Positions 5,474 through 47,376 of a stretch of 64,000 nucleotides of DNA are shown here, in pieces. Both the position numbers and the translations under genes were made by a program. Location of the stretch: positions 1,785,297 through 1,849,296 of the forward strand of contig NZ_CP019936.1 of assembly GCF_002009425.1 (NCBI RefSeq). Reading direction: 5' to 3'. The notes beneath the pieces were generated by a model. That model was not told the origin of the DNA, did no database searches, and saw only the letters and a list, made by a program, of their open reading frames with translations. Numbering within the stretch: the first letter of the stretch is position 1; each line of letters begins with the position of its first letter. Origin of the DNA: Thiosocius teredinicola (GTDB lineage: Bacteria; Pseudomonadota; Gammaproteobacteria; Chromatiales; Chromatiaceae).

Positions 5474-7693
5474 ATGGTCTCGCTTGTAACCAACCTGCCG
5501 AAAGAGGGCACTGCATCCGAGCAGCAAGTCGAAGATTGGCTGACGGAACTGGCCGAGCGGCGCTCGCCGGAAGATGTGCAGGCGCTGCGTGCCGCCGCGC
5601 ACATCGCGCGCACTACGCATGCGGGTGAAAAAGCGCCCGACGGTTTTGATCGCTTCCTGTCGCTGCTGCACACGGTCGATACCCTCGACAGCCTCAAGCT
5701 CGATCGCGAACCGCTGATCGCCGCGATGCTGTCGGAGCTGCCCGGGCATCCGGCCTACAACGCAGCCGACATCACCAAGCGTTTCGGCCCGGCGGTCACC
5801 GCCATGGTGGAGCAGGTCTCGCGGATACGCGGGCTGTCGGCCAGCGGGTCCGAACACACCGACGAGAAAGCGGTCGAGAACCTGCGGCGCATGCTGCTTG
5901 GTATCGCCAACGACGTGCGCGCCATCCTGGTCGTGCTTGCAAAGCGTCTGCAGTTGATGCGCCGCCTCAAGCGCATGCCACCCGACGTGCAACGTCGCGT
6001 GGCGCGCGAGACGCAGCTGGTGCATGCACCACTGGCGAACCGCCTCGGCGTTTGGCAGTTGAAGTGGGAACTCGAAGATCTCTGCCTGCGTTACCTCGAG
6101 CCCGAGCAATACATCACGTTGGCCAAACAGCTCGACGGCAAGCGTCGCGAGCGCGAGGCCTTCGTCACATCGGTGATCGAGCGCCTCGGCGGGTCCTGTG
6201 CCGCGTCGGGGATCCCGGTCGAACTCACCGGGCGGCCGAAACACATTTACAGCATCTGGAAGAAGATGAAGCGCAAGCGCGTGGATTTCGACCAGGTGTT
6301 CGACGTGCGCGCAGTGCGAGCGCTGGTCGACACCGTGCCGCAGTGCTACGAGGTGCTGGGTATCGCGCACAGCATCTGGCGACCGGTGCCCGGAGAGTTC
6401 GACGACTACATCGCGCATCCCAAGCCGAACGGCTATCGGTCGTTGCACACGGCGGTGGTCGGCGATGACGGCAAGCCGCTCGAGATCCAGGTGCGTACCC
6501 GCGAGATGCACGAGCATGCCGAACGCGGTGTGGCGGCGCACTGGCGCTACAAAGAGGCCAGCCAGAAGGACGATGAACTCGAACGGCGTATCGAGTGGAT
6601 GCGGCGCTGGTTGGAGACGCAGGACGATGACAGTCAACAGTTCGAGCCGGGTGAGGAAGATGCCGAGTTCGAAGCGCGTCGCATCTACGTGCTGTCACCC
6701 AAGGGCGAGGTGATCGAGCTGCCCAATGGCGCCACGGCGCTGGATTTTGCCTATGCGATCCACACCTCGGTCGGTCATCGTTGCCGCGGCGCCAAGGTCG
6801 ATGGACATATCGCGCCGTTGGCCCAACCGTTAAAAAGCGGTGAAAAGGTCGAGATTCTGACCGTCAAGGAAGGCGGGCCGAGTCGCGACTGGGTGAATCC
6901 GCACTCGGGTTATCTGACGACGAGTCGTGCCCGCAACCGCGTTCGCCAGTGGTTCAAGCAGCAGGACTTCGACGAGCATGTGGCGATCGGTCGCAACAGT
7001 CTCGAACGCGAAGTCGCGCGCTTGAGCGTACCCAAGCCCGATCTCGACAAGCTCGCCGCACGTTTCAACTTCAAGACGCCCGACGATCTGCTCGCCGCGA
7101 TCGGACGCGGTGAACTCTCGGCGATCCAGCTTGCGAATACCCAGATCGAGCGGGCGCGTCGCGATCCCGCGCACATCGCCGATAAGGAGATTCCGGAGAA
7201 GGTTCGTCAACGGGCGCCCTCGAAGTCTGCAGGCGGTGCGGGGCAGATCGTCGTCGAGGGCATCGGCGACCTGATGACGCAGATGGCCAAATGCTGCAAA
7301 CCGGTGCCTTACGACGATATCGTTGGATATATCACCAAGGGGCGCGGCGTGACGGTCCATCGCGCAGACTGCGCCGTAGTGCGCAAGATGAACCCCGAAC
7401 ACCGGGCGCGCCTGGTGGACGTCTCGTGGGCGGATACACAGCGCGACTCGCGTTTCCTGGTCGACATCCACGTGTTCGCGGCCGACCGCAAAGGTCTGTT
7501 GCGGGACATTTCGTCGGTGTTCGCCAATGCCGAGATCGATGTGCTGGGCGTCAACACCCAGTCCGATCGGCGCAACGAGCGGGCGAATATGCGTTTCACC
7601 GCCGAGGTCAGCGACATGACTCAACTCAGCCGGGTCATGGAACGCCTGTCCCAGATTCCCGACGTGCTCGACGTGCGTCGGCAATTATCCTAA
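5474..7693 (+). CDS. relA: GTP pyrophosphokinase, RelA-type (p)ppGpp synthetase
   Basis: Makes (p)ppGpp from ATP and GTP/GDP during amino-acid starvation on ribosomes carrying uncharged tRNA. The 739-residue protein has the full RSH layout: degenerate HD domain (about 1-200), synthetase domain (about 230-370), TGS domain (about 400-465), helical and Cys-containing region with CCKPVPYDDIVGYI, and a C-terminal ACT/RRM domain. The synthetase substrate loop reads EFDD at residues 308-311, the acidic form of monofunctional RelA, not the basic RxKD form of SpoT/Rel. The HD diad is missing (SE at the equivalent place), so hydrolase activity is not expected. ATG at 5474; the nearest SD-like GAAGGAG (5452-5458) is rather far. 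Confidence 0.95.
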   Translation: MVSLVTNLPKEGTASEQQVEDWLTELAERRSPEDVQALRAAAHIARTTHAGEKAPDGFDRFLSLLHTVDTLDSLKLDREPLIAAMLSELPGHPAYNAADITKRFGPAVTAMVEQVSRIRGLSASGSEHTDEKAVENLRRMLLGIANDVRAILVVLAKRLQLMRRLKRMPPDVQRRVARETQLVHAPLANRLGVWQLKWELEDLCLRYLEPEQYITLAKQLDGKRREREAFVTSVIERLGGSCAASGIPVELTGRPKHIYSIWKKMKRKRVDFDQVFDVRAVRALVDTVPQCYEVLGIAHSIWRPVPGEFDDYIAHPKPNGYRSLHTAVVGDDGKPLEIQVRTREMHEHAERGVAAHWRYKEASQKDDELERRIEWMRRWLETQDDDSQQFEPGEEDAEFEARRIYVLSPKGEVIELPNGATALDFAYAIHTSVGHRCRGAKVDGHIAPLAQPLKSGEKVEILTVKEGGPSRDWVNPHSGYLTTSRARNRVRQWFKQQDFDEHVAIGRNSLEREVARLSVPKPDLDKLAARFNFKTPDDLLAAIGRGELSAIQLANTQIERARRDPAHIADKEIPEKVRQRAPSKSAGGAGQIVVEGIGDLMTQMAKCCKPVPYDDIVGYITKGRGVTVHRADCAVVRKMNPEHRARLVDVSWADTQRDSRFLVDIHVFAADRKGLLRDISSVFANAEIDVLGVNTQSDRRNERANMRFTAEVSDMTQLSRVMERLSQIPDVLDVRRQLS

Positions 7694-30015: not shown

Positions 30016-31389
30016 TCAACCTGCCTGTTCGCCGGGGCGCAAGCGCTGGCGGATGTCTTTCTTGGCCTGGTCGATGATCGAGTCGCGATCCAGGCTGTCG
30101 AGTATCTCGCGCACTGCGAGTTTGGGGCCTGCATCGCCCCACGATTTGCCGTTGGCGAGGTAACGCTCGGCGGCACGTCCGACCACGTAGGTGCTGTAGT
30201 ACGCAACTGCGCCCTGCGCAGCGCCGGTGACTGCGGCAGACAGGCCGCCGGTGCCCAGCTTCAACGCCGTGGAAACCAGATGCACCGCCCACACCGTGCC
30301 CATCAGCAGCAGCATCTGCGCGCCGATCGTCTTCACCAGGCTGCCGGCCTCGTTGCGACTCAGCGGCAGCCCGTAGGCCTTCGAGAGATGGACCACCATC
30401 GTGACGTCGACCACCGCGGCCGCAACCAGGTCGGCGACCGGCACCGGGTTGATTGCAACCGCCACACCCTTGGCGATACACCAAGTGCGAATCACGCGAT
30501 CCCCCAGCGTGCGTCGTGCGTCGAGTACGCGATCGGCAACCTGGTCGCTGAGTTCGCCGGCGAACAGTGAGGCATTGAGTGCCGCCAGCGTCTTGCCCTC
30601 CGCCTCGATAACCTTCCATAGACGCGCCTTGAGTTCGGCGATATCCGGCGGCGACTGGCGTTGTTGCTCCACCTCGTTGCCCGCCTCGTCGACCCTGATT
30701 ACCCACTGCGGTACCGGTTGTGCCGCGGCGAACACCAGGTTGGCCGGATTGATCAGGCCGCGGGTGCGTTCCAGCAAGACGTTGCCCAGTACCTCGCGTT
30801 CATGTTGGTTGTAGCGGTCGATCTTGTTGAGCACCAGGATCAGCGGGCGTTCCTGCTTGGCCAGCGCGCGCAGTGCCTGCAGCTCGATGTGGGTCAGGTC
30901 GCCGTCGACCACGAATAACACCAGGTCCGAACGGTTGGCGACGTCCTTGGCGAGTTGTTCGCGGCCTTCGCCATCTACCTCGTTGATGCCGGGAGTATCG
31001 ATCAGAAAGACGTTGCCGTCCTGAAACTCGTGCCATTGTCCCTGTTGCACGGTACGGGTTTCGCCATGCAAGGGGCTGGTGGAAAAAACGGCCTGGCCGA
31101 GCAGGGCATTGACCAATGCGGACTTGCCCACGCTGACGCGGCCGAACACGGCGATGTGAATATGGCCGTGCTCCAGCTTGTCGAGCATCGTTTGCACTTC
31201 GCGGTAGTCGTCGGCCAGCGATGACCGTACCTCTTCGGGTACGCGCTCGTCGGCCAACAGCTCGCGCAGGCTTTCGCGAGCGAGCGCAAGGTGGCTGTCG
31301 CCCGCGGTATCAGGGTTGTTGTCGGGCGTCGCGGGCTTGCTGGACAACCAGCTTGGCCACGCCACGCGCAGACGTTTCCATATTTTCAC
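30016..31389 (-). CDS. Membrane-associated GTPase with DUF697-like C-terminus (second of pair)
   Basis: A GTPase of the Era/dynamin-like group with P-loop GRVSVGKSALVNALLG, G3 DTPG and G4 NKID, in the order usual for the class, followed by helical and glycine/alanine-rich hydrophobic segments resembling DUF697 (VADLVAAAVVDVTMVVHLSKAYGLPLS). A GTG at 31389 is preferred (457 residues): AAGGA lies 8 bases upstream, and it overlaps the end of the upstream GTPase gene by 80 bases. A longer frame starts at 31440. It forms an operon with its paralogue; such pairs may assemble together on membranes. The exact role is unknown. Confidence 0.8.
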   Translation of the reverse strand: MKIWKRLRVAWPSWLSSKPATPDNNPDTAGDSHLALARESLRELLADERVPEEVRSSLADDYREVQTMLDKLEHGHIHIAVFGRVSVGKSALVNALLGQAVFSTSPLHGETRTVQQGQWHEFQDGNVFLIDTPGINEVDGEGREQLAKDVANRSDLVLFVVDGDLTHIELQALRALAKQERPLILVLNKIDRYNQHEREVLGNVLLERTRGLINPANLVFAAAQPVPQWVIRVDEAGNEVEQQRQSPPDIAELKARLWKVIEAEGKTLAALNASLFAGELSDQVADRVLDARRTLGDRVIRTWCIAKGVAVAINPVPVADLVAAAVVDVTMVVHLSKAYGLPLSRNEAGSLVKTIGAQMLLLMGTVWAVHLVSTALKLGTGGLSAAVTGAAQGAVAYYSTYVVGRAAERYLANGKSWGDAGPKLAVREILDSLDRDSIIDQAKKDIRQRLRPGEQAG

Positions 31390-32812
31390 CGAGCGTATCC
31401 TTGAACAACTGGGCGGTCTGTCTGGGGTGGAGCTCGCCACGGGTCGCCAATGTCGTGGTCAACGCGCGTCCGAGGGTTCGAAAGATGATGCCGTAGGCCA
31501 CCGCATGCAACGCACCGCCGGCCAGCGTACCGACGCCGGGAAAGGCCTTGAGCGCATTACCGGCGACCGCCAACAGCAGCGTATGGGCGCGCCCGACGTG
31601 CTTTTGCACCAGCTCCAACAGCAGATCGGTATCCACCTTGCGAACCTTGATGTCGTAGAGCGCAGAGAGCTCCTTGATCATCTGCGTTCCCAACCATCCT
31701 TGGATCAGGATATCCGAGCCAGGCGTCAGCGCGGCCAATGCGCCGACCACGGCTTTGACGGAATATTGATCGACAAGCTTTTCTGCCCTGGCTTTGCGCG
31801 AGACCGCGAGCGCCTCGTCGAGCTGTTGCGAGGCGAGCACGAAGGTGGCGCTGTCGCGCAGTTCGTCGAGGATGTGTTGGTCGCTGTCGAGGATGCGTTG
31901 CAGCGTGAGCCCCAAGGGTGTGACCTGGGGGGCGATGTTGCGCGTTTCGATCTGCTCGCCGCCATCCGGTAACAGGCGAACGAGCTGGCGTTGAGTGGCC
32001 GCCGATACCCGAACGAAATGGCCGTGCGGATGGCCGGCGATCACACGTTGCAGTTTGTCGGACAAGGCCTGCGCATCGGCTTCGCTGTACCGATCGGTCT
32101 TGTTCAGCACCAATACCAGGGGTTTGTTCAGCGCCATCAACTCACGTAGCGCTGCATCCTGGGCACGATTGATGTCGCTGTCGGTCACATAGATGACGAT
32201 ATGTGCACGCTTTGCTTCGTCGGCTGCGAGGCGGTCGAGGGTGCCATCCGCCTCTTCGGTACCCGGCATGTCGGTTATCAGCAACTGGTCGCCGGCGGGG
32301 CTTTGCCACCGATACTGCGTCAGTTCGCGGGTAGTGCCGCCGCGAACACCGCTTTCGATTTCGACGTCGGGTAGCAAGGCATTGATCAGTGACGATTTGC
32401 CCGTGGATATCTCGCCGAACAATGCGACGTGTACCTGGCCGGTCTGCTTGCGTCGGCGAAGCTCGGCCAGTTCGTTGCGGATCTCGCTGGTATCTGCGCC
32501 CAAGGCCTCTGCCTGTTCGATCGCGGCATGCACATCGGCTTCGCTGGGACCTGCAGGCTCTTTGTTCTCTGCCGGTTTGGTGCGCTTGCGTGGATTGAGT
32601 ACGCGCCAAACCAGCCAGCCGCTCAACAGGCCGCCGAGCATCATCAACCCCCACCAGCCGTAGCGCAGCCAGGGCGAGCTGTTTTCCAGGTGCGACTGAA
32701 CCGTCAGCGTCGACTCGCTGATGGTTAGAACGAGCAACAACGCCAGCAGGGAAAGCACGAGGACCGCGAGCGCGATCAGGGTTCGAATGCTACGAGGCAG
32801 CTTGTCGCTCAT
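31310..32812 (-). CDS. Membrane GTPase with two N-terminal helices and DUF697-like C-terminus (first of pair)
   Basis: A 500-residue protein: two membrane helices at about 10-31 and 50-70, a linker, then a G domain with P-loop GEISTGKS (133-140), G3 DMPG (181-184) and G4 NKTD (237-240), and a helical C-terminal region with DUF697-like features (VVGALAALTPGSDILIQGWLGTQMIKELSALYDIKV) and a Gly/Ala-rich amphipathic stretch. It overlaps the next GTPase gene. Both proteins keep all nucleotide-binding motifs. Possible roles are membrane stress response or membrane remodelling; neither is shown by the sequence. Confidence 0.82.
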   Translation of the reverse strand: MSDKLPRSIRTLIALAVLVLSLLALLLVLTISESTLTVQSHLENSSPWLRYGWWGLMMLGGLLSGWLVWRVLNPRKRTKPAENKEPAGPSEADVHAAIEQAEALGADTSEIRNELAELRRRKQTGQVHVALFGEISTGKSSLINALLPDVEIESGVRGGTTRELTQYRWQSPAGDQLLITDMPGTEEADGTLDRLAADEAKRAHIVIYVTDSDINRAQDAALRELMALNKPLVLVLNKTDRYSEADAQALSDKLQRVIAGHPHGHFVRVSAATQRQLVRLLPDGGEQIETRNIAPQVTPLGLTLQRILDSDQHILDELRDSATFVLASQQLDEALAVSRKARAEKLVDQYSVKAVVGALAALTPGSDILIQGWLGTQMIKELSALYDIKVRKVDTDLLLELVQKHVGRAHTLLLAVAGNALKAFPGVGTLAGGALHAVAYGIIFRTLGRALTTTLATRGELHPRQTAQLFKDTLGENMETSARGVAKLVVQQARDARQQP

Positions 32813-32928
32813 TGCGGGTCGATTCGGATCGAAGAAGAGTTCGATGATGGATTGGTAGACACGCTAACCCAGCCTTGGGTTCAGGGCAATAAACCCTGGT
32901 GGATGACCGGTTCGCACCAGCGGCGCGC

Positions 32929-32954
32929 AAAAAAAACCGCCCTTCAGGGCGGTT
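32929..32954 (-). terminator. Intrinsic terminator of the coiled-coil protein gene
   Basis: On the minus strand a stem AACCGCCC / GGGCGGTT with a TGAA loop is followed by a T run (eight A on the plus strand at 32929-32936). It is 22 bases after the stop of the coiled-coil/wHTH gene and upstream of the GTPase pair. Confidence 0.88.
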
Positions 32955-32976
32955 CTTTTTCAAGTACGTACTTGCT

Positions 32977-33393
32977 TCACGCTGCGGAGTAAACCGAGCG
33001 GGCAGGTGACGTGACTTTTCCCTGACGTTTCAGATAGGCCAGGGTTTGAGCAAGGTTGTTGGCGATAACGCCACGTTTATCGAGTTCGGCTTTGATTTGC
33101 TTGGTAGTGATCTTCTTGCTCTTACCGACGATCTCCATCACCTGATCGGTCACACTGCCACCGCTGCTGCGGCTTTTACGGCGCGGTGCACGGCCACCCA
33201 GGCTACGGATCTCGGCATCGATAGCGGCCAGCTCTTTGCGTTGGCGCGCCACGACGTCGCGCCGCTTCGCTTTCAGTTCATCGATTTGAGCACGGGTAGC
33301 TTCCTTTGCTTCTGCTTCCTCTTGTTCTTCACGCAGGCGTGCCATTTCGTACAGTTCTTCAGCACTCAGGTCTGAAAGACTTTTTCTCGCCAT
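32977..33393 (-). CDS. Coiled-coil protein with putative C-terminal winged helix
   Basis: A 138-residue charged protein. Residues about 1-65 are a predicted coiled coil rich in Glu, Ala, Arg and Lys; a basic linker follows (GGRAPRRKSRSSGG), then a small alpha/beta domain (about 83-135) that reads like a winged helix (VTDQVMEIVGKSKKITTKQIKAELDKRG, then a recognition-like helix and the KVTSPARSVY wing). This layout suggests an abundant DNA-binding or nucleoid-associated protein, but I recognise no named family. It has its own terminator and an inverted repeat 30 bases upstream of the start. Confidence is in the gene, not its function. Confidence 0.75.
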   Translation of the reverse strand: MARKSLSDLSAEELYEMARLREEQEEAEAKEATRAQIDELKAKRRDVVARQRKELAAIDAEIRSLGGRAPRRKSRSSGGSVTDQVMEIVGKSKKITTKQIKAELDKRGVIANNLAQTLAYLKRQGKVTSPARSVYSAA

Positions 33394-41732: not shown

Positions 41733-42332
41733 TTAATCGGTGAGTGCCAGCCACCCCGGCAGCTCTTCGACGCGTGTCAGCCAGGCCTGCACCGCAGGGT
41801 AGGGTTGCAGTGAGAAATTGCCGTCGCCGGCAAGGGCAACGTAGGGATAGCAGGCGAGGTCGGCGATCGTGGGGCGATCGGTGGCCAGCCAGGGCGCGTC
41901 ACTGAGCTGGTGCTCCATTGCCTCCAATCCGGGCTTGGCCTCGCGGTGACACTGGTCCACATCGAAAGGCTTGCTGAACAGAACGGCGACGCGTGCGCGT
42001 GCGAGTCCGTACTGTAGTTCGTTTTCAGAAACCGCAAGCCATTGCATCACCCGCGCTTCGCCGAGCGCGTCGGCCGGCAGCCATTGGCCGTCGCCATGCC
42101 GTCGCGCCAAGTAGACAAGAATCGCCATTGAATCCCACAGCAGTATTTCGCCATCGGCCAACACCGGGATCTGCCCACGCGGGTTCAGGCGTTTGAACTC
42201 ATCGGTCTGGGTTTCGCCCTTGGTGCTGTCGACGGCGATGCGTTGGTAGTCGACGCCCAGCATCGACAGCAACAGTCGAACCTTGTAGCAATTACCTGAG
42301 CGGGGGAAGTCGTAGAGTTGCAGAGTAGACAT
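41733..42332 (-). CDS. Glutathione S-transferase family protein
   Basis: A 199-residue GST: N-terminal thioredoxin-like domain (MSTLQLYDFPRSGNCYKVRLLLSMLG) with the Ser of RSGNCYK as the likely catalytic residue and the NPRGQIPVL glutathione-site loop, then the all-helical C-terminal domain with RPTIADLACYPYVAL. The substrate is unknown. The ATG at 42332 fits the family; the longer frame upstream is not similar. It converges with rapA (34 bases). Confidence 0.9.
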   Translation of the reverse strand: MSTLQLYDFPRSGNCYKVRLLLSMLGVDYQRIAVDSTKGETQTDEFKRLNPRGQIPVLADGEILLWDSMAILVYLARRHGDGQWLPADALGEARVMQWLAVSENELQYGLARARVAVLFSKPFDVDQCHREAKPGLEAMEHQLSDAPWLATDRPTIADLACYPYVALAGDGNFSLQPYPAVQAWLTRVEELPGWLALTD

Positions 42333-42486
42333 CGCGGTTCTCTCCAGGGGGTGGGCTGCGTTTACAGCTGCTCGTGCTGCCGCGCATAGATCGAGGCCAA
42401 CCGGTGCAAATGTTGGCGGAAGGTGATGCTGACGGCATGACGGCGAGTTGCACCGGCCGATAGTAACAAGCCGAGCCCCGTCGATG

Positions 42487-43494
42487 TCAGGGCGTTCCGA
42501 TTCGCGTGCCCGACGATCTGCAGCGGGTGCGTACTGGCTTTTTAGCCTGCAACTCATCGAGCGTGGCCTGGATTGGCCCGAGCAGGGCAGGCTGATCGGT
42601 TTCTGCGATAGCCAGCGCGCGTTGCGCGGTGGCAATGGCCTGTGTGTGACAACCGAGCGCGGCTTGTACCTCAGCCAGGTTGTTCAGCGCGGCCGCGTGC
42701 CGCGGTTGCTGTTCGATGATCAGGCGATACTCTCGTTCTGCCTCGGTGAATCCGCCGGAAGCATAGAGTGCATGTGCATAGCCGAATCTGGCGGTTGGGT
42801 TCGACGGCCAGCGTTCAAGCATCACCCGATAAGCAGCCTGTCTTGCACGCGGCGTCAACAGCGGCTCTGCGACGGCGGTCGCACTGAGCATACGGTCCAG
42901 CGCTGGTTGTGCCGGCAAACTACCCGGACGCAAAGCGACAACGCCCCATCGTTCTGCCAGGCGCCAGCTACGTAAGAACTTGTGTGCCGACATCAGCTCC
43001 CTTCTTTGCGTCCCGGAGCGCAGCACAACAGTGTCGTCGATCGGGTTAAGTCCGACGACTACCGCATAGTGCCAAACCGGCCAAAAGCCGAGTCCCAGAT
43101 TCTGCATGACGAGAACCGGGTGCCCGGCGTCGATTTCCGCGCGCAGCGCAGACAGCGACGGTTCGATGACATAGGGAATGCGGCCGGCGCGACGTGTGGC
43201 GGCGAGCATCTCGACTTGCAGTGAACCCTTCTTGGCCGGGACATACACCTGGCCAACAAGGTCATCGGGCGATACACCGACACCGCTCGCATCGAGTACG
43301 GTCGCCAGGGCCGCCGGACCACATTGGTAGTCCTGCTGTGGATAGAAGGGGGTATCACTGAGCTCGATAGGCTGGCTCAGAGGCGGTGCCAATTCAGGGA
43401 GCACTGGCGGCCGGCTTGCGCAGGCCGCCAATGTGACGAGGCACGCGACTACAGCACAGCAGCGGAGGCTGCTTTTGATGCGACGCGTATTCAG
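42487..43494 (-). CDS. PA2778-family cysteine peptidase lipoprotein with TPRs
   Basis: A lipoprotein with a C39-like peptidase domain and C-terminal TPR repeats. The only standard start (TTG 43431) would give a lipobox Cys at residue 4 and no signal peptide. A CTG at 43494 overlaps the stop of the upstream gene (CTGA) and gives MNTRRIKSSLRCCAVVACLV-TLAAC, a perfect lipoprotein signal; I choose it (335 residues). With that start the catalytic Cys is C58 (YQCGPAAL) and His is H141 (WHYAVVVG). TPRs span about 230-310. It pairs with a PA2779-family gene as in Pseudomonas. Function unknown. Confidence 0.82.
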   Translation of the reverse strand: MNTRRIKSSLRCCAVVACLVTLAACASRPPVLPELAPPLSQPIELSDTPFYPQQDYQCGPAALATVLDASGVGVSPDDLVGQVYVPAKKGSLQVEMLAATRRAGRIPYVIEPSLSALRAEIDAGHPVLVMQNLGLGFWPVWHYAVVVGLNPIDDTVVLRSGTQRRELMSAHKFLRSWRLAERWGVVALRPGSLPAQPALDRMLSATAVAEPLLTPRARQAAYRVMLERWPSNPTARFGYAHALYASGGFTEAEREYRLIIEQQPRHAAALNNLAEVQAALGCHTQAIATAQRALAIAETDQPALLGPIQATLDELQAKKPVRTRCRSSGTRIGTP

Positions 43495-43871
43495 ACTTTG
43501 GTGAAGATATTGGTGACCCCGACCAGTTCGAGGATCAACAACACGACAAAGACCACGCCGATCACCGCGAGCACGCTGCCACCGGCCGGCAGTTCATCCA
43601 ACTGTGCCGACAGCATCTGCAATTCTTCGGTACTCAGTGCCGCAATACGTGCATCGACCTCGGCCGGTGAAACACCCTGCTGCAGAAACTGCGCACGAAT
43701 ATCGTCACGCGCCAGTTGGCCCTGGATGCGGTTCAACAACTCGCCCCGTTGATCGAGCTGTACCAGCGTATCGGTGCCGATCGGTGCCGCCAGACTCACG
43801 ACCGGCAGACCGAGCAGGCTGGTTGTCACGATCAGCAGCATGGCGATGAACTTTTTGAAGATATTTTTCAC
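43491..43871 (-). CDS. PA2779-family protein
   Basis: A 126-residue protein (GTG start) with a signal peptide or N-terminal helix (about 5-28, cleavage after SLA), a helical middle with QGVSPAEVDARIAALSTEEL, and a C-terminal membrane helix (about 98-118, VLAVIGVVFVVLLILELVGV). This matches the PA2779 family, always next to PA2778-type peptidases; it may be the peptidase's partner or substrate. SD-like GGGGGT precedes the GTG. The downstream peptidase gene starts within its stop codon. Confidence 0.85.
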   Translation of the reverse strand: MKNIFKKFIAMLLIVTTSLLGLPVVSLAAPIGTDTLVQLDQRGELLNRIQGQLARDDIRAQFLQQGVSPAEVDARIAALSTEELQMLSAQLDELPAGGSVLAVIGVVFVVLLILELVGVTNIFTKV

Positions 43872-43978
43872 TTAATGACCCCCTGGTACATTGTGATAGG
43901 GAGGATTGCGCCGCCAACGCCCAAGACGCTAGCACGCTTCCTCGCTGAACCGCAAACAGCGATTAGGGGAGCTTGAAC

Positions 43979-44009
43979 TCTGTAGCAGAACTGCGTCTGT
44001 AGCAGAACT
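43979..44009. repeat. Tandem direct repeat, 14 bp, period 17
   Basis: Two identical copies of TCTGTAGCAGAACT at 43979-43992 and 43996-44009, separated by GCG, at the left edge of the AT-rich island. Confidence 0.8.
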
Positions 44010-44124
44010 AGAGAGTAAACAAGGAACGTTTGTTCTCCCGAAGAAGCACGTTCGATCTTTAGTGCTGACGTCAGCGTCGGGTGACAGTGCGTTAATGTTG
44101 AAGAATTCGACCAACAAATTGGGC

Positions 44125-44143
44125 GTCGCTAAACATCGGTTGC
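44125..44143 (+). repeat. 19-bp direct repeat, copy 1
   Basis: GTCGCTAAACATCGGTTGC; 18 of 19 bases match copy 2 (44503-44521), with the single change C to A at the fifth base. The copies are 378 bases apart, both upstream of the NACHT gene. Confidence 0.8.
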
Positions 44144-44502
44144 CTTGGGTTCAGCAAACAAAATAGAAATGGAGCACGGCGGTGTATCGAGAAATACTAT
44201 TGTTTGATTTGCAGACCATGCTTAAATTGCGTGAAATCGTTGCTGAGTAAAGAGCCAGCTGCCAAAGGACTTTTACGAATCTGATGTTGAGCGATCAGGC
44301 TATTGTTTCTACAGTACAGGCTTAGCAAAAAGGGTGTTTTTTGAGCTTTCATGACGATGATCTTTCTGTCTTCATGAGATAGGAGAATTGGCCCGAGTGT
44401 CGCATAGACTTTATGGCTTAAGTGGCTTGTGTCATTTTAGTCTGATTTCCCTAGTCGCATCTGTGCTGGTTTTCGTACTAAAGTATACGTTTCACTAGAA
44501 TA

Positions 44503-44521
44503 GTCGATAAACATCGGTTGC
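44503..44521 (+). repeat. 19-bp direct repeat, copy 2
   Basis: GTCGATAAACATCGGTTGC, 81 bases before the NACHT gene start. Matches copy 1 at 18 of 19 positions. It may be a regulator site or the trace of an insertion or recombination event. Confidence 0.8.
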
Positions 44522-44601
44522 TACATAGATGGAAGCCATTTAGCGAGATATTGGACAATTTCAGACGGCAAGCACGTTTTTATGGTCACGCTGAATAACG
44601 C

Positions 44602-47376
44602 ATGAGCTTGGGGGTGCGAGTGTTTCTCGAATCTTTAATAACGGGTGTTGGAAGTGGAGTAGCGAAAGGGGTTTTTCGTGTTTGGTTGAAAGATCAAGCG
44701 TTGTTGCTTGGTGTGGGTGAGGAATTTACAGACGTATTGAAAGAAGCAATTCCCGATATTCGGAAACGTAGGTCTACCCAGCGACAGTTTGAACAGATTG
44801 CCGACAGAGCGGCGGAAAGTGTTCTGCAAATGCTCGAAAAAGAAGGCAAAGATATCAGCGATGAAAGGCTGGATATAGTTATAAGCGCAGCAGGGGCTAC
44901 TATTTTGACAACCAATATTACTGCGGAACTTGCAGCTAGTGAAAGCCTTAGCCCCGATAGATTGCTTAGGTATTTTCTGAACAAGAAAGGTAGTGAGGGG
45001 GGTAATCCGGGAAAAGAATTCTCAGACGAAGAATCTCAAATATACTCCAGGATTCTTCATCACGCATCGCAGTTAATTGTAGATATATCTTCTCAGCTAC
45101 CTAGGTTTCAGGAGGCTGTATTTTCTGAAATCTTGTCTCGACAGACAGTATTGATTGATAAAGCGAATGAAGTGGTGTCTGGAATAGATAAGATTCTCAA
45201 AAGTCAAGAAGGTGAAAGTATCGCGCACAAGAGGTTTGAATCTGACTACAGGATAGCGTGCATTCGAAAGTACGATCGCCTTCAGCTATTCGGTGTGGAT
45301 GTGCAGAACTCACATAGGCGTTATCAACTGAGCGTTGCTTACGTTGCGCTGGAAGTGGAGCTGTCGAAGCGTATGCGAATGGAGCAAGCTCTCAGCGCCA
45401 CAACTCGACTGTTTTTGCGGGGAGCCGCAGGATCAGGAAAAACGACTTTGCTGCAGTGGTTCGCGACTAAAGCAGCTGGTCGTGAACTTAATGGAACGCT
45501 TGCGGAGTTCAATGGCTCTGTCCCCTTTTTGATCAAGCTGAGGGACCTTCGGTCGGATAGTTTTCCGAGTTTGGAAGATTGGCCATATAAAGTCACAGAC
45601 GCACTCAGTGGTAAGCCTTCTGATTGGGTTCACGGGATTGTGAGTGACGGTAGAGCGATAATTTTGATAGACGGAGTCGACGAAGTATCGGAGTACAACC
45701 GAGGGCGCGTGTTGGATTGGATAGATCATCTAACGAGTCTTTATCCACGCAACTATTTTGTAGTTACTGCGAGGCCTCATGCTGTCCCGGCCCAGTGGTT
45801 AGAACGTGCAGGATTTACAGTGGCTGAAGTTAAGGAAATGGGGCGTGATGATATTGTCCAGTTTATCGACCATTGGCACAAGGCGATCCTTCTGAATTGC
45901 CAAGACGATAGAGAAAAAAAAGATATAGAGAAATTCTCCCATGCATTGAAGGTGAAGATCACTAATGATGTCTCGCTTTATCGTTTGGTTAGCAATCCAT
46001 TGCTGAATGCCATTATATGTGCGCTGCATCGCGAGCGCGTGGAAAATTTGCCTAGCGACAGAATTGAGCTTTATAGAGCTTGCGTGGACATGTTCTTCCG
46101 AAGAAATCGTGAACGAAAAGTGAACATGGAGGACTATGTTGAATTGACAGATAGGCAGTTGCTTTTCTTGCTACAGGATCTTGCCTGGTGGATGATTCGT
46201 AATGCGAAAACAACAGCCACACGGTTGGAAGTCGAGGATAGATTCAATAGAACGATGTTGTCTTTGGCTGAATGTCCAATTGATGCAGATGGCAAACAAT
46301 TGTGTAAATTGTTTGTTGAGCGGGTCGGTATTCTCAGAGAGCTTTCGCCGACGAATATCGATTTTCCACACAGGACTTTTCAAGAATACTTGGCAGCATA
46401 TGCTGCGGTTACAGAGAATGATCTTGGCTCGTTAATTAGTAATGCGCACGATCCACAATGGAGGGAGGTGGTAATAATAGCTGCAGCACTTATAGCAGAT
46501 GTGAAGAAGGCGGAGAAGTTCATTCTGCTGCTTCTGGAGAAGGGAGACAAAGGGTGGCATCGGGAGATATTGTATATTGTCGCTGCCGCGTCTCTTGAGA
46601 GCGTGGTTCATTTACCTCACATAAGGCGGGTTCAGACGCTAGTCGAAAAGCGCTTGGAAAAGATTGTGCCACCGAAGAGTATATCGGGAGCGAATGAACT
46701 AGCGAAAAGTGGTGATTTAGTTGTTTCCTTACTTCGCTACAATGAAGATTGGGATGTGGAGAGCTCATGCGCATCAATTCGGTCTTTGTCGATTATCGGG
46801 ACTGAAACTGCTACTTATTGTCTTATTGGATGGACGGCGGATCGCCGGCCCGAGATTCATAAGCAGATTAGTTTGTCGCTTAGGGATTCACAAGCGCGGA
46901 CTGTATCCAGGGTTTGCAAGGATTGGAAGAATCCTCAGCACGTTAAGGAGTTGGATTTGTCGACAATCCCGATGGATAATTTTGCATTTTTGGAGAAGTT
47001 TGTGAATTTGGAGGTTCTGAACTTAGCATATACAACAATAAATAATATTGATGCTTTACAAAGTTTGAAGTCGTTGCGTATTCTGAATCTCGAAGGTACG
47101 AAAGTTGATGATATCTCTGCGTTGCGCGAGTTGAGTTTAGTTGAGGATCTCAATTTGGCGTTGACTCTTGTCTCTGATATAGAGGTTTTGGGAGATAAGG
47201 AACAATTAACAACATTGAATTTGATGAACACAAATGTAGAGAGTGTTGCAGCGCTGACGGGCTGTCGTGCTCTTCGTGAATTGAGTGTATTGGGGGTTAG
47301 AGTAGATCGAAAAGAAATAGTGAAGCTGAGGCGGGAGAATAAAAAGGTTAGGATAATAGGTCGAGAATCACAATAA
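44602..47376 (+). CDS. NACHT-LRR protein, bacterial NLR-like STAND ATPase (probable anti-phage)
   Basis: A 924-residue protein with the plan of an NLR: an N-terminal helical region (about 1-200, no recognised effector motif), a NACHT ATPase with Walker A GAAGSGKTT (274-282) and Walker B ILIDGVDE (354-361, the DGxDE form typical of NACHT), sensor-like VVTARPHAVP (387-396), winged-helix and helical arms (FPHRTFQEYLAAYAAV), then about five 22-residue leucine-rich repeats near the C-terminus (LEVLNLAYTTINNIDALQSL, LRILNLEGTKVDDISALREL and so on). Bacterial NACHT proteins are known anti-phage sensors. The ATG at 44602 has a poor SD. It stands alone, in AT-rich DNA. NLR architecture is clear; ligand and effector action are unknown. 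Confidence 0.9.
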   Translation: MSLGVRVFLESLITGVGSGVAKGVFRVWLKDQALLLGVGEEFTDVLKEAIPDIRKRRSTQRQFEQIADRAAESVLQMLEKEGKDISDERLDIVISAAGATILTTNITAELAASESLSPDRLLRYFLNKKGSEGGNPGKEFSDEESQIYSRILHHASQLIVDISSQLPRFQEAVFSEILSRQTVLIDKANEVVSGIDKILKSQEGESIAHKRFESDYRIACIRKYDRLQLFGVDVQNSHRRYQLSVAYVALEVELSKRMRMEQALSATTRLFLRGAAGSGKTTLLQWFATKAAGRELNGTLAEFNGSVPFLIKLRDLRSDSFPSLEDWPYKVTDALSGKPSDWVHGIVSDGRAIILIDGVDEVSEYNRGRVLDWIDHLTSLYPRNYFVVTARPHAVPAQWLERAGFTVAEVKEMGRDDIVQFIDHWHKAILLNCQDDREKKDIEKFSHALKVKITNDVSLYRLVSNPLLNAIICALHRERVENLPSDRIELYRACVDMFFRRNRERKVNMEDYVELTDRQLLFLLQDLAWWMIRNAKTTATRLEVEDRFNRTMLSLAECPIDADGKQLCKLFVERVGILRELSPTNIDFPHRTFQEYLAAYAAVTENDLGSLISNAHDPQWREVVIIAAALIADVKKAEKFILLLLEKGDKGWHREILYIVAAASLESVVHLPHIRRVQTLVEKRLEKIVPPKSISGANELAKSGDLVVSLLRYNEDWDVESSCASIRSLSIIGTETATYCLIGWTADRRPEIHKQISLSLRDSQARTVSRVCKDWKNPQHVKELDLSTIPMDNFAFLEKFVNLEVLNLAYTTINNIDALQSLKSLRILNLEGTKVDDISALRELSLVEDLNLALTLVSDIEVLGDKEQLTTLNLMNTNVESVAALTGCRALRELSVLGVRVDRKEIVKLRRENKKVRIIGRESQ

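Follow-up and report, generated by a model that had tools for sequence, protein, structure and literature searches.

The question raised by this locus is what a solitary, AT-rich gene of Thiosocius teredinicola encodes, and what role its product may play in the cell. The gene lies in the window, that is, the whole stretch of 64,000 nucleotides that was analyzed. As stated in PMC12169576, bacterial NACHT proteins defend against phages, and those combining NACHT with leucine-rich repeats (LRRs) are termed bona fide bacterial NLRs (citing Kibby et al. 2023). Our overall reading, with a probability of about 0.75, is that the gene is a horizontally gained single-gene bacterial NLR, built as a STAND switch and most likely anti-phage, in which the NNH1 domain serves as effector or adaptor. 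Both the NACHT-LRR class and the NNH1 name are already known, and the window protein adds a member.

Domain Architecture and Structure Model

The ORF called in the first-pass annotation is real, with exact coordinates and a length of 924 aa (Table 1). Its product is a member of the NACHT clade of STAND NTPases with an NLR layout; the Pfam and AlphaFold analyses place NNH1, NACHT, helical arms and LRRs in sequence, in agreement with the NLR order and NACHT-LRR identity proposed from the letters. In the Pfam scan, NNH1 reaches 104.2 bits (curated cut-off 27) and NACHT 74.1 bits (curated cut-off 26.7), with the Walker A (GAAGSGKTT, containing K280) and Walker B (LIDGVDE) motifs of the latter intact. 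The LRR_4 match (E = 3.4e-12, 46.6 bits vs a cut-off of 27) is C-terminal to NACHT in the same ORF, and the combination that characterizes a bacterial NLR is thereby present in one protein. Each LRR unit is exactly 22 residues long, and the corresponding hydrophobic periodicity was reached in none of 5000 shuffles. A NACHT match in a profile search and an LRR in a structure model, two of the features on which the earlier reading had been staked, are both present, the latter as a solenoid.

Table 1. Features of the NLR locus, in positions of the window
Feature	Position	Strand	Evidence
NNH1-NACHT-LRR protein gene (bacterial NLR), 924 aa	44602..47376	+	ORF with ATG start
NNH1 (residues 14-192), entirely helical; effector or adaptor candidate	44641..45177	+	Pfam PF22733, E = 1.1e-29; helical model
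NACHT NTPase domain, residues 270-427	45409..45882	+	Pfam PF05729, E = 1.5e-20
Post-NACHT helical arms, ~residues 428-770, HEAT-like helices at the end	45883..46911	+	AlphaFold model
Six 22-residue LRRs, residues 779-910, internalin/SDS22 type, candidate sensor	46936..47331	+	
AT-rich leader 5' of the NLR gene, 43% GC	43975..44601		

The AlphaFold model was built from a three-sequence alignment and is weak overall (mean pLDDT 58). The LRR block is mostly at pLDDT 68-89, and the helical arms at 73-90 around residues 600-760 and low around 455-594; a weak HEAT_2 match is seen in the relative from a Thiosymbion symbiont described below. The top PDB fold match of the model is rabbit NOD2 (~820 alignment columns, E = 1e-7), with a global TM of only 0.16-0.19, so that the match backs the domain order and not the precise arrangement. 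Internalins and a Chlorobium Roco LRR follow it, and the best PDB sequence match of the NACHT domain is NLRC4, at a weak E = 0.002.

The first-pass annotation had considered the LRR layout closer to that of animal NLRs. This holds for the domain order, since NACHT, helical arms and a C-terminal LRR are shared with NOD2 and NLRC4, but not for the LRR class. The LRRs of animal NLRs are of the 28-29-residue ribonuclease-inhibitor type, whereas those of the window protein are 22-residue units of the internalin/SDS22 type, which match internalins and the Roco LRR; the likeness is therefore one of layout. The N-terminus, where animal-type NLRs carry CARD, PYD or BIR, is NNH1, and neither a CARD nor a PYD match was found in the protein.

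Composition and Origin of the Locus

The composition of the gene differs markedly from that of its surroundings. The NLR gene has 44.8% GC and a GC3 of 0.44, as compared to GC3 values of 0.65-0.83 in the six surrounding genes (0.83 in valS), and GC is 44-46% at 44-47 kb vs about 60-63% on either side. The AT-rich stretch extends from ~43975 to ~47480, including a leader of ~630 bp. The NLR ORF is the sole clearly AT-rich coding stretch of the window, which has a milder dip (50% GC) at 33-34 kb. The earlier description of one clearly foreign-looking stretch with the NLR as its single gene is borne out by the GC and GC3 contrast and by the one AT-rich ORF.

The distribution of the gene is equally sparse. 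It is single copy in the genome, a full-length relative is found in none of 55 related genomes (8 of them congeneric), and among 399 sampled Pseudomonadota genomes NNH1 is above the cut-off only in that of Thiosocius teredinicola. Vertical inheritance in close relatives, which had been named as evidence against the proposal, was not seen, the gene being absent at the locus in the congeners examined. The spacing between rapA and valS is ~300 bp in one congener (G008) and ~11 bp in another (G007), vs 5.8 kb in the window, where the interval holds a GST gene, PA2778-like and PA2779-like genes (names assigned from the sequence) and the NLR gene. With rapA and valS adjacent in these two congeners, the whole 5.8-kb interval is extra relative to them; within it, only the NLR part is AT-rich, and the homology of the window to the congener valS flank ends at ~47480. 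The single NNH1 occurrence among the sampled Pseudomonadota, the lack of a congener copy and the rapA-valS adjacency together make a horizontal gain of the NLR gene likely.

Regarding the other genes of the interval, positions 41733-43871 (GST, PA2778/PA2779-like) lie between rapA and valS here and have no counterpart there in the two congeners; in congener G003 a GST homologue is located 5.7 kb from valS. No convincing flanking direct repeats or att sites were found at the boundaries of the stretch, no tRNA in the 64-kb window, no recognizable integrase among the ORFs at the rapA-valS interval and no Rfam family in the leader. The leader does contain a 19-nt direct repeat with one mismatch (44125-44143 and 44503-44521), and these two copies are the only ones genome-wide within one mismatch.

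Relatives of the NLR Protein

Two full-length relatives were identified, one in a Thiosymbion symbiont MAG (L039; 42% identity over residues 7-901) and one in an Acidobacteriota MAG (L040; 32% over residues 8-901). Each of them carries NNH1 and NACHT, followed by a longer LRR array than the six units of the window protein; array length thus varies among relatives. Several tandem 22-residue units at L039:4800-5400 are nearly identical to each other, which suggests a recent expansion of that sensor array.

The fewer repeats of the window protein, together with its isolated position, might also be read as signs of a captured gene that is decaying and no longer functional. The intact 924-aa frame, the presence of both Walker motifs and a similarity to two distant relatives that is conserved over almost the entire protein make this explanation very improbable.

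Relatives on Streptomyces plasmids share the same core, with LRR matches below the Pfam cut-off (an LRR-like core). NNH1 precedes it in one of them (L052), which like L039 and L040 has the same domain order as the window protein, and an HTH replaces NNH1 in three others (L051, L053 and L062), indicating an exchangeable N-terminus. Because of these HTH relatives, a main rival reading is that of a STAND-type transcription or stress regulator, in which NACHT-LRR would sense a cellular signal and the N-terminus would control gene expression rather than defense. The window protein, however, has NNH1 and no HTH, its gene is lone, foreign and patchily distributed with no obvious regulatory target adjoining, and HTH-STAND proteins may themselves belong to defense systems; a regulatory role is accordingly quite improbable.

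No relatives were found on viral contigs, and in phage records just LRR or weak NACHT pieces were matched.

Genomic Context and Defense

The NLR gene of the Acidobacteriota MAG lies directly 3' of a Septu-type pair (PtuA, 1.7e-54; PtuB, 3.8e-60). It is the one relative among those examined in which a known defense system adjoins the NLR gene, and this linkage is the best contextual evidence for defense. In this pair (L040:4443-7392), the PtuA-like gene, which has an extra N-terminal AAA region, comes first, and the PtuB-like gene follows it, immediately upstream of the NACHT-LRR gene. A defense role of the window NLR is plausible given this relative behind a Septu-type pair and the sporadic distribution. 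Together with the phage defense provided by those bacterial NACHT proteins that have been tested (PMC12169576), these two observations make an anti-phage function the most likely role.

The immediate surroundings of the window gene are of a different kind, with no defense system beside it among the nine nearby genes scanned with PADLOC. No specific PADLOC or NCBIfam defense model matches the NLR protein, for which PADLOC gives just weak P-loop matches (best E = 0.004). The rapA, GST and PA2778-/PA2779-like neighbors have no PADLOC match or just generic helicase matches. The DrmD/BrxH matches on rapA were rejected as generic SNF2, because rapA adjoins valS in the congeners too. Elsewhere in the window, at 31310-33393, a GTPase adjoins a small basic protein not far from the milder AT-rich dip; the match of this GTPase to PADLOC LeoBC/LeoA (1.1e-22) is confined to the GTPase part.

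The NNH1 Domain and a Possible Partner

The N-terminal 200 residues had been described as carrying no motif recognized as a nuclease, protease, TIR or pore domain. A recognized domain is nevertheless present there, an already named Pfam family, NNH1 or "NACHT N-terminal Helical domain 1"; the part of the claim that stands is the function, as the literature search found no paper on NNH1, no described activity and no tested NNH1 protein. The structure prediction and profile search suggested for residues 1-200 thus returned the NNH1 match and no known effector fold. The NNH1 model is helical (mean pLDDT 68.5), and Foldseek gave no match to the PDB or a known effector below E = 1.1 with this weak model from a three-sequence alignment; hmmsearch against the PDB gave no sequence relative. 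Across four members, most invariant NNH1 columns are hydrophobic; the charged ones are few and scattered, and no catalytic pattern was recognized among them. NNH1 is therefore less likely to be an enzyme than to serve in assembly or as an adaptor, and would probably act by forming a helical bundle, either at a membrane or through recruitment of a partner.

The second of these options has some basis in the Thiosymbion MAG, where the NLR gene is flanked by two genes of 174 aa that are 68% identical (L039:1856-2380 and 5654-6178), the second overlapping the stop codon of the NLR gene. The other main rival reading, possible though unlikely, is accordingly a defense-type NLR whose partner is encoded elsewhere or has been lost, with NNH1 as the adaptor recruiting a separate effector; the lack of a recognized catalytic signature in NNH1 fits it as well. 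It is opposed by the lack of a 174-aa gene homologue in the Thiosocius teredinicola genome, in a search run without a positive control, and by the neighborhoods of the Streptomyces NNH1 relative, where the annotation shows no gene of this type, and of the window copy, where none lies. The 174-aa genes have no Pfam family, and a HEPN identity suspected by eye was not retained, lacking Pfam support. Homologues of theirs occur on Rhizobium plasmids beside another small gene (L061).

An unlikely proposal along the lines of the membrane option is that NNH1 represents an effector class new to bacteria. Its N-terminal helix, as part of a helical bundle, would act on membranes upon NLR oligomerization, in functional analogy to plant coiled-coil or fungal HeLo domains. 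The idea of a membrane helix finds no direct support, as no 19-residue segment of the 924-aa protein has a Kyte-Doolittle mean above 1.5.

Proposed Mechanism

The best-supported model of the window protein is that of a STAND switch, with the C-terminal repeats as probable sensor and NNH1 as probable output. Following established STAND biology, the resting protein would be an autoinhibited, ADP-bound monomer. Binding of a phage product or of a phage-disturbed host factor to the C-terminal HEAT-like/LRR part would lead to ADP-ATP exchange and oligomerization through NACHT, and the clustered NNH1 domains would then stop the growth of the infected cell or kill it. What is observed here is the set of domains with the Walker motifs, whereas each functional step is taken from the family; the weakest step would be the NNH1 output by helical-bundle assembly, on the membrane or via a recruited partner.

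Comparison with Known Systems

With the bacterial NLRs of Kibby et al. 2023, as cited in PMC12169576, the window protein shares a central NACHT and a C-terminal LRR in one ORF and the tripartite STAND layout. It is, like bNACHT02/12 (clade 14) and bNACHT25/32 (clade 6), a single-gene NACHT STAND protein. In contrast to characterized bNACHT proteins, it carries LRRs and an N-terminal NNH1, and the Pfam scan gave no match to a PD-(D/E)XK nuclease, NCH1 or SNaCT. The CARD-NLR systems (Lysobacter; Caulobacter LypABC, PMC13236601) share the STAND ATPase, but they comprise several genes, among them those for proteases or gasdermin, and the repeats of LypB are TPR-like (PMC13236601), whereas the window has one gene with LRRs. 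No test of the window sequence was found in the literature.

As a gene-finding result, the locus is ordinary. Proteins of the NNH1-NACHT-LRR type are nevertheless bacterial NLRs in compact form, encoded by a single gene and equipped with a candidate LRR sensor. From a working member one could learn whether phage ligands are read by the LRRs of bacterial NLRs, and by what means a helical N-terminus brings about cell death or arrest.
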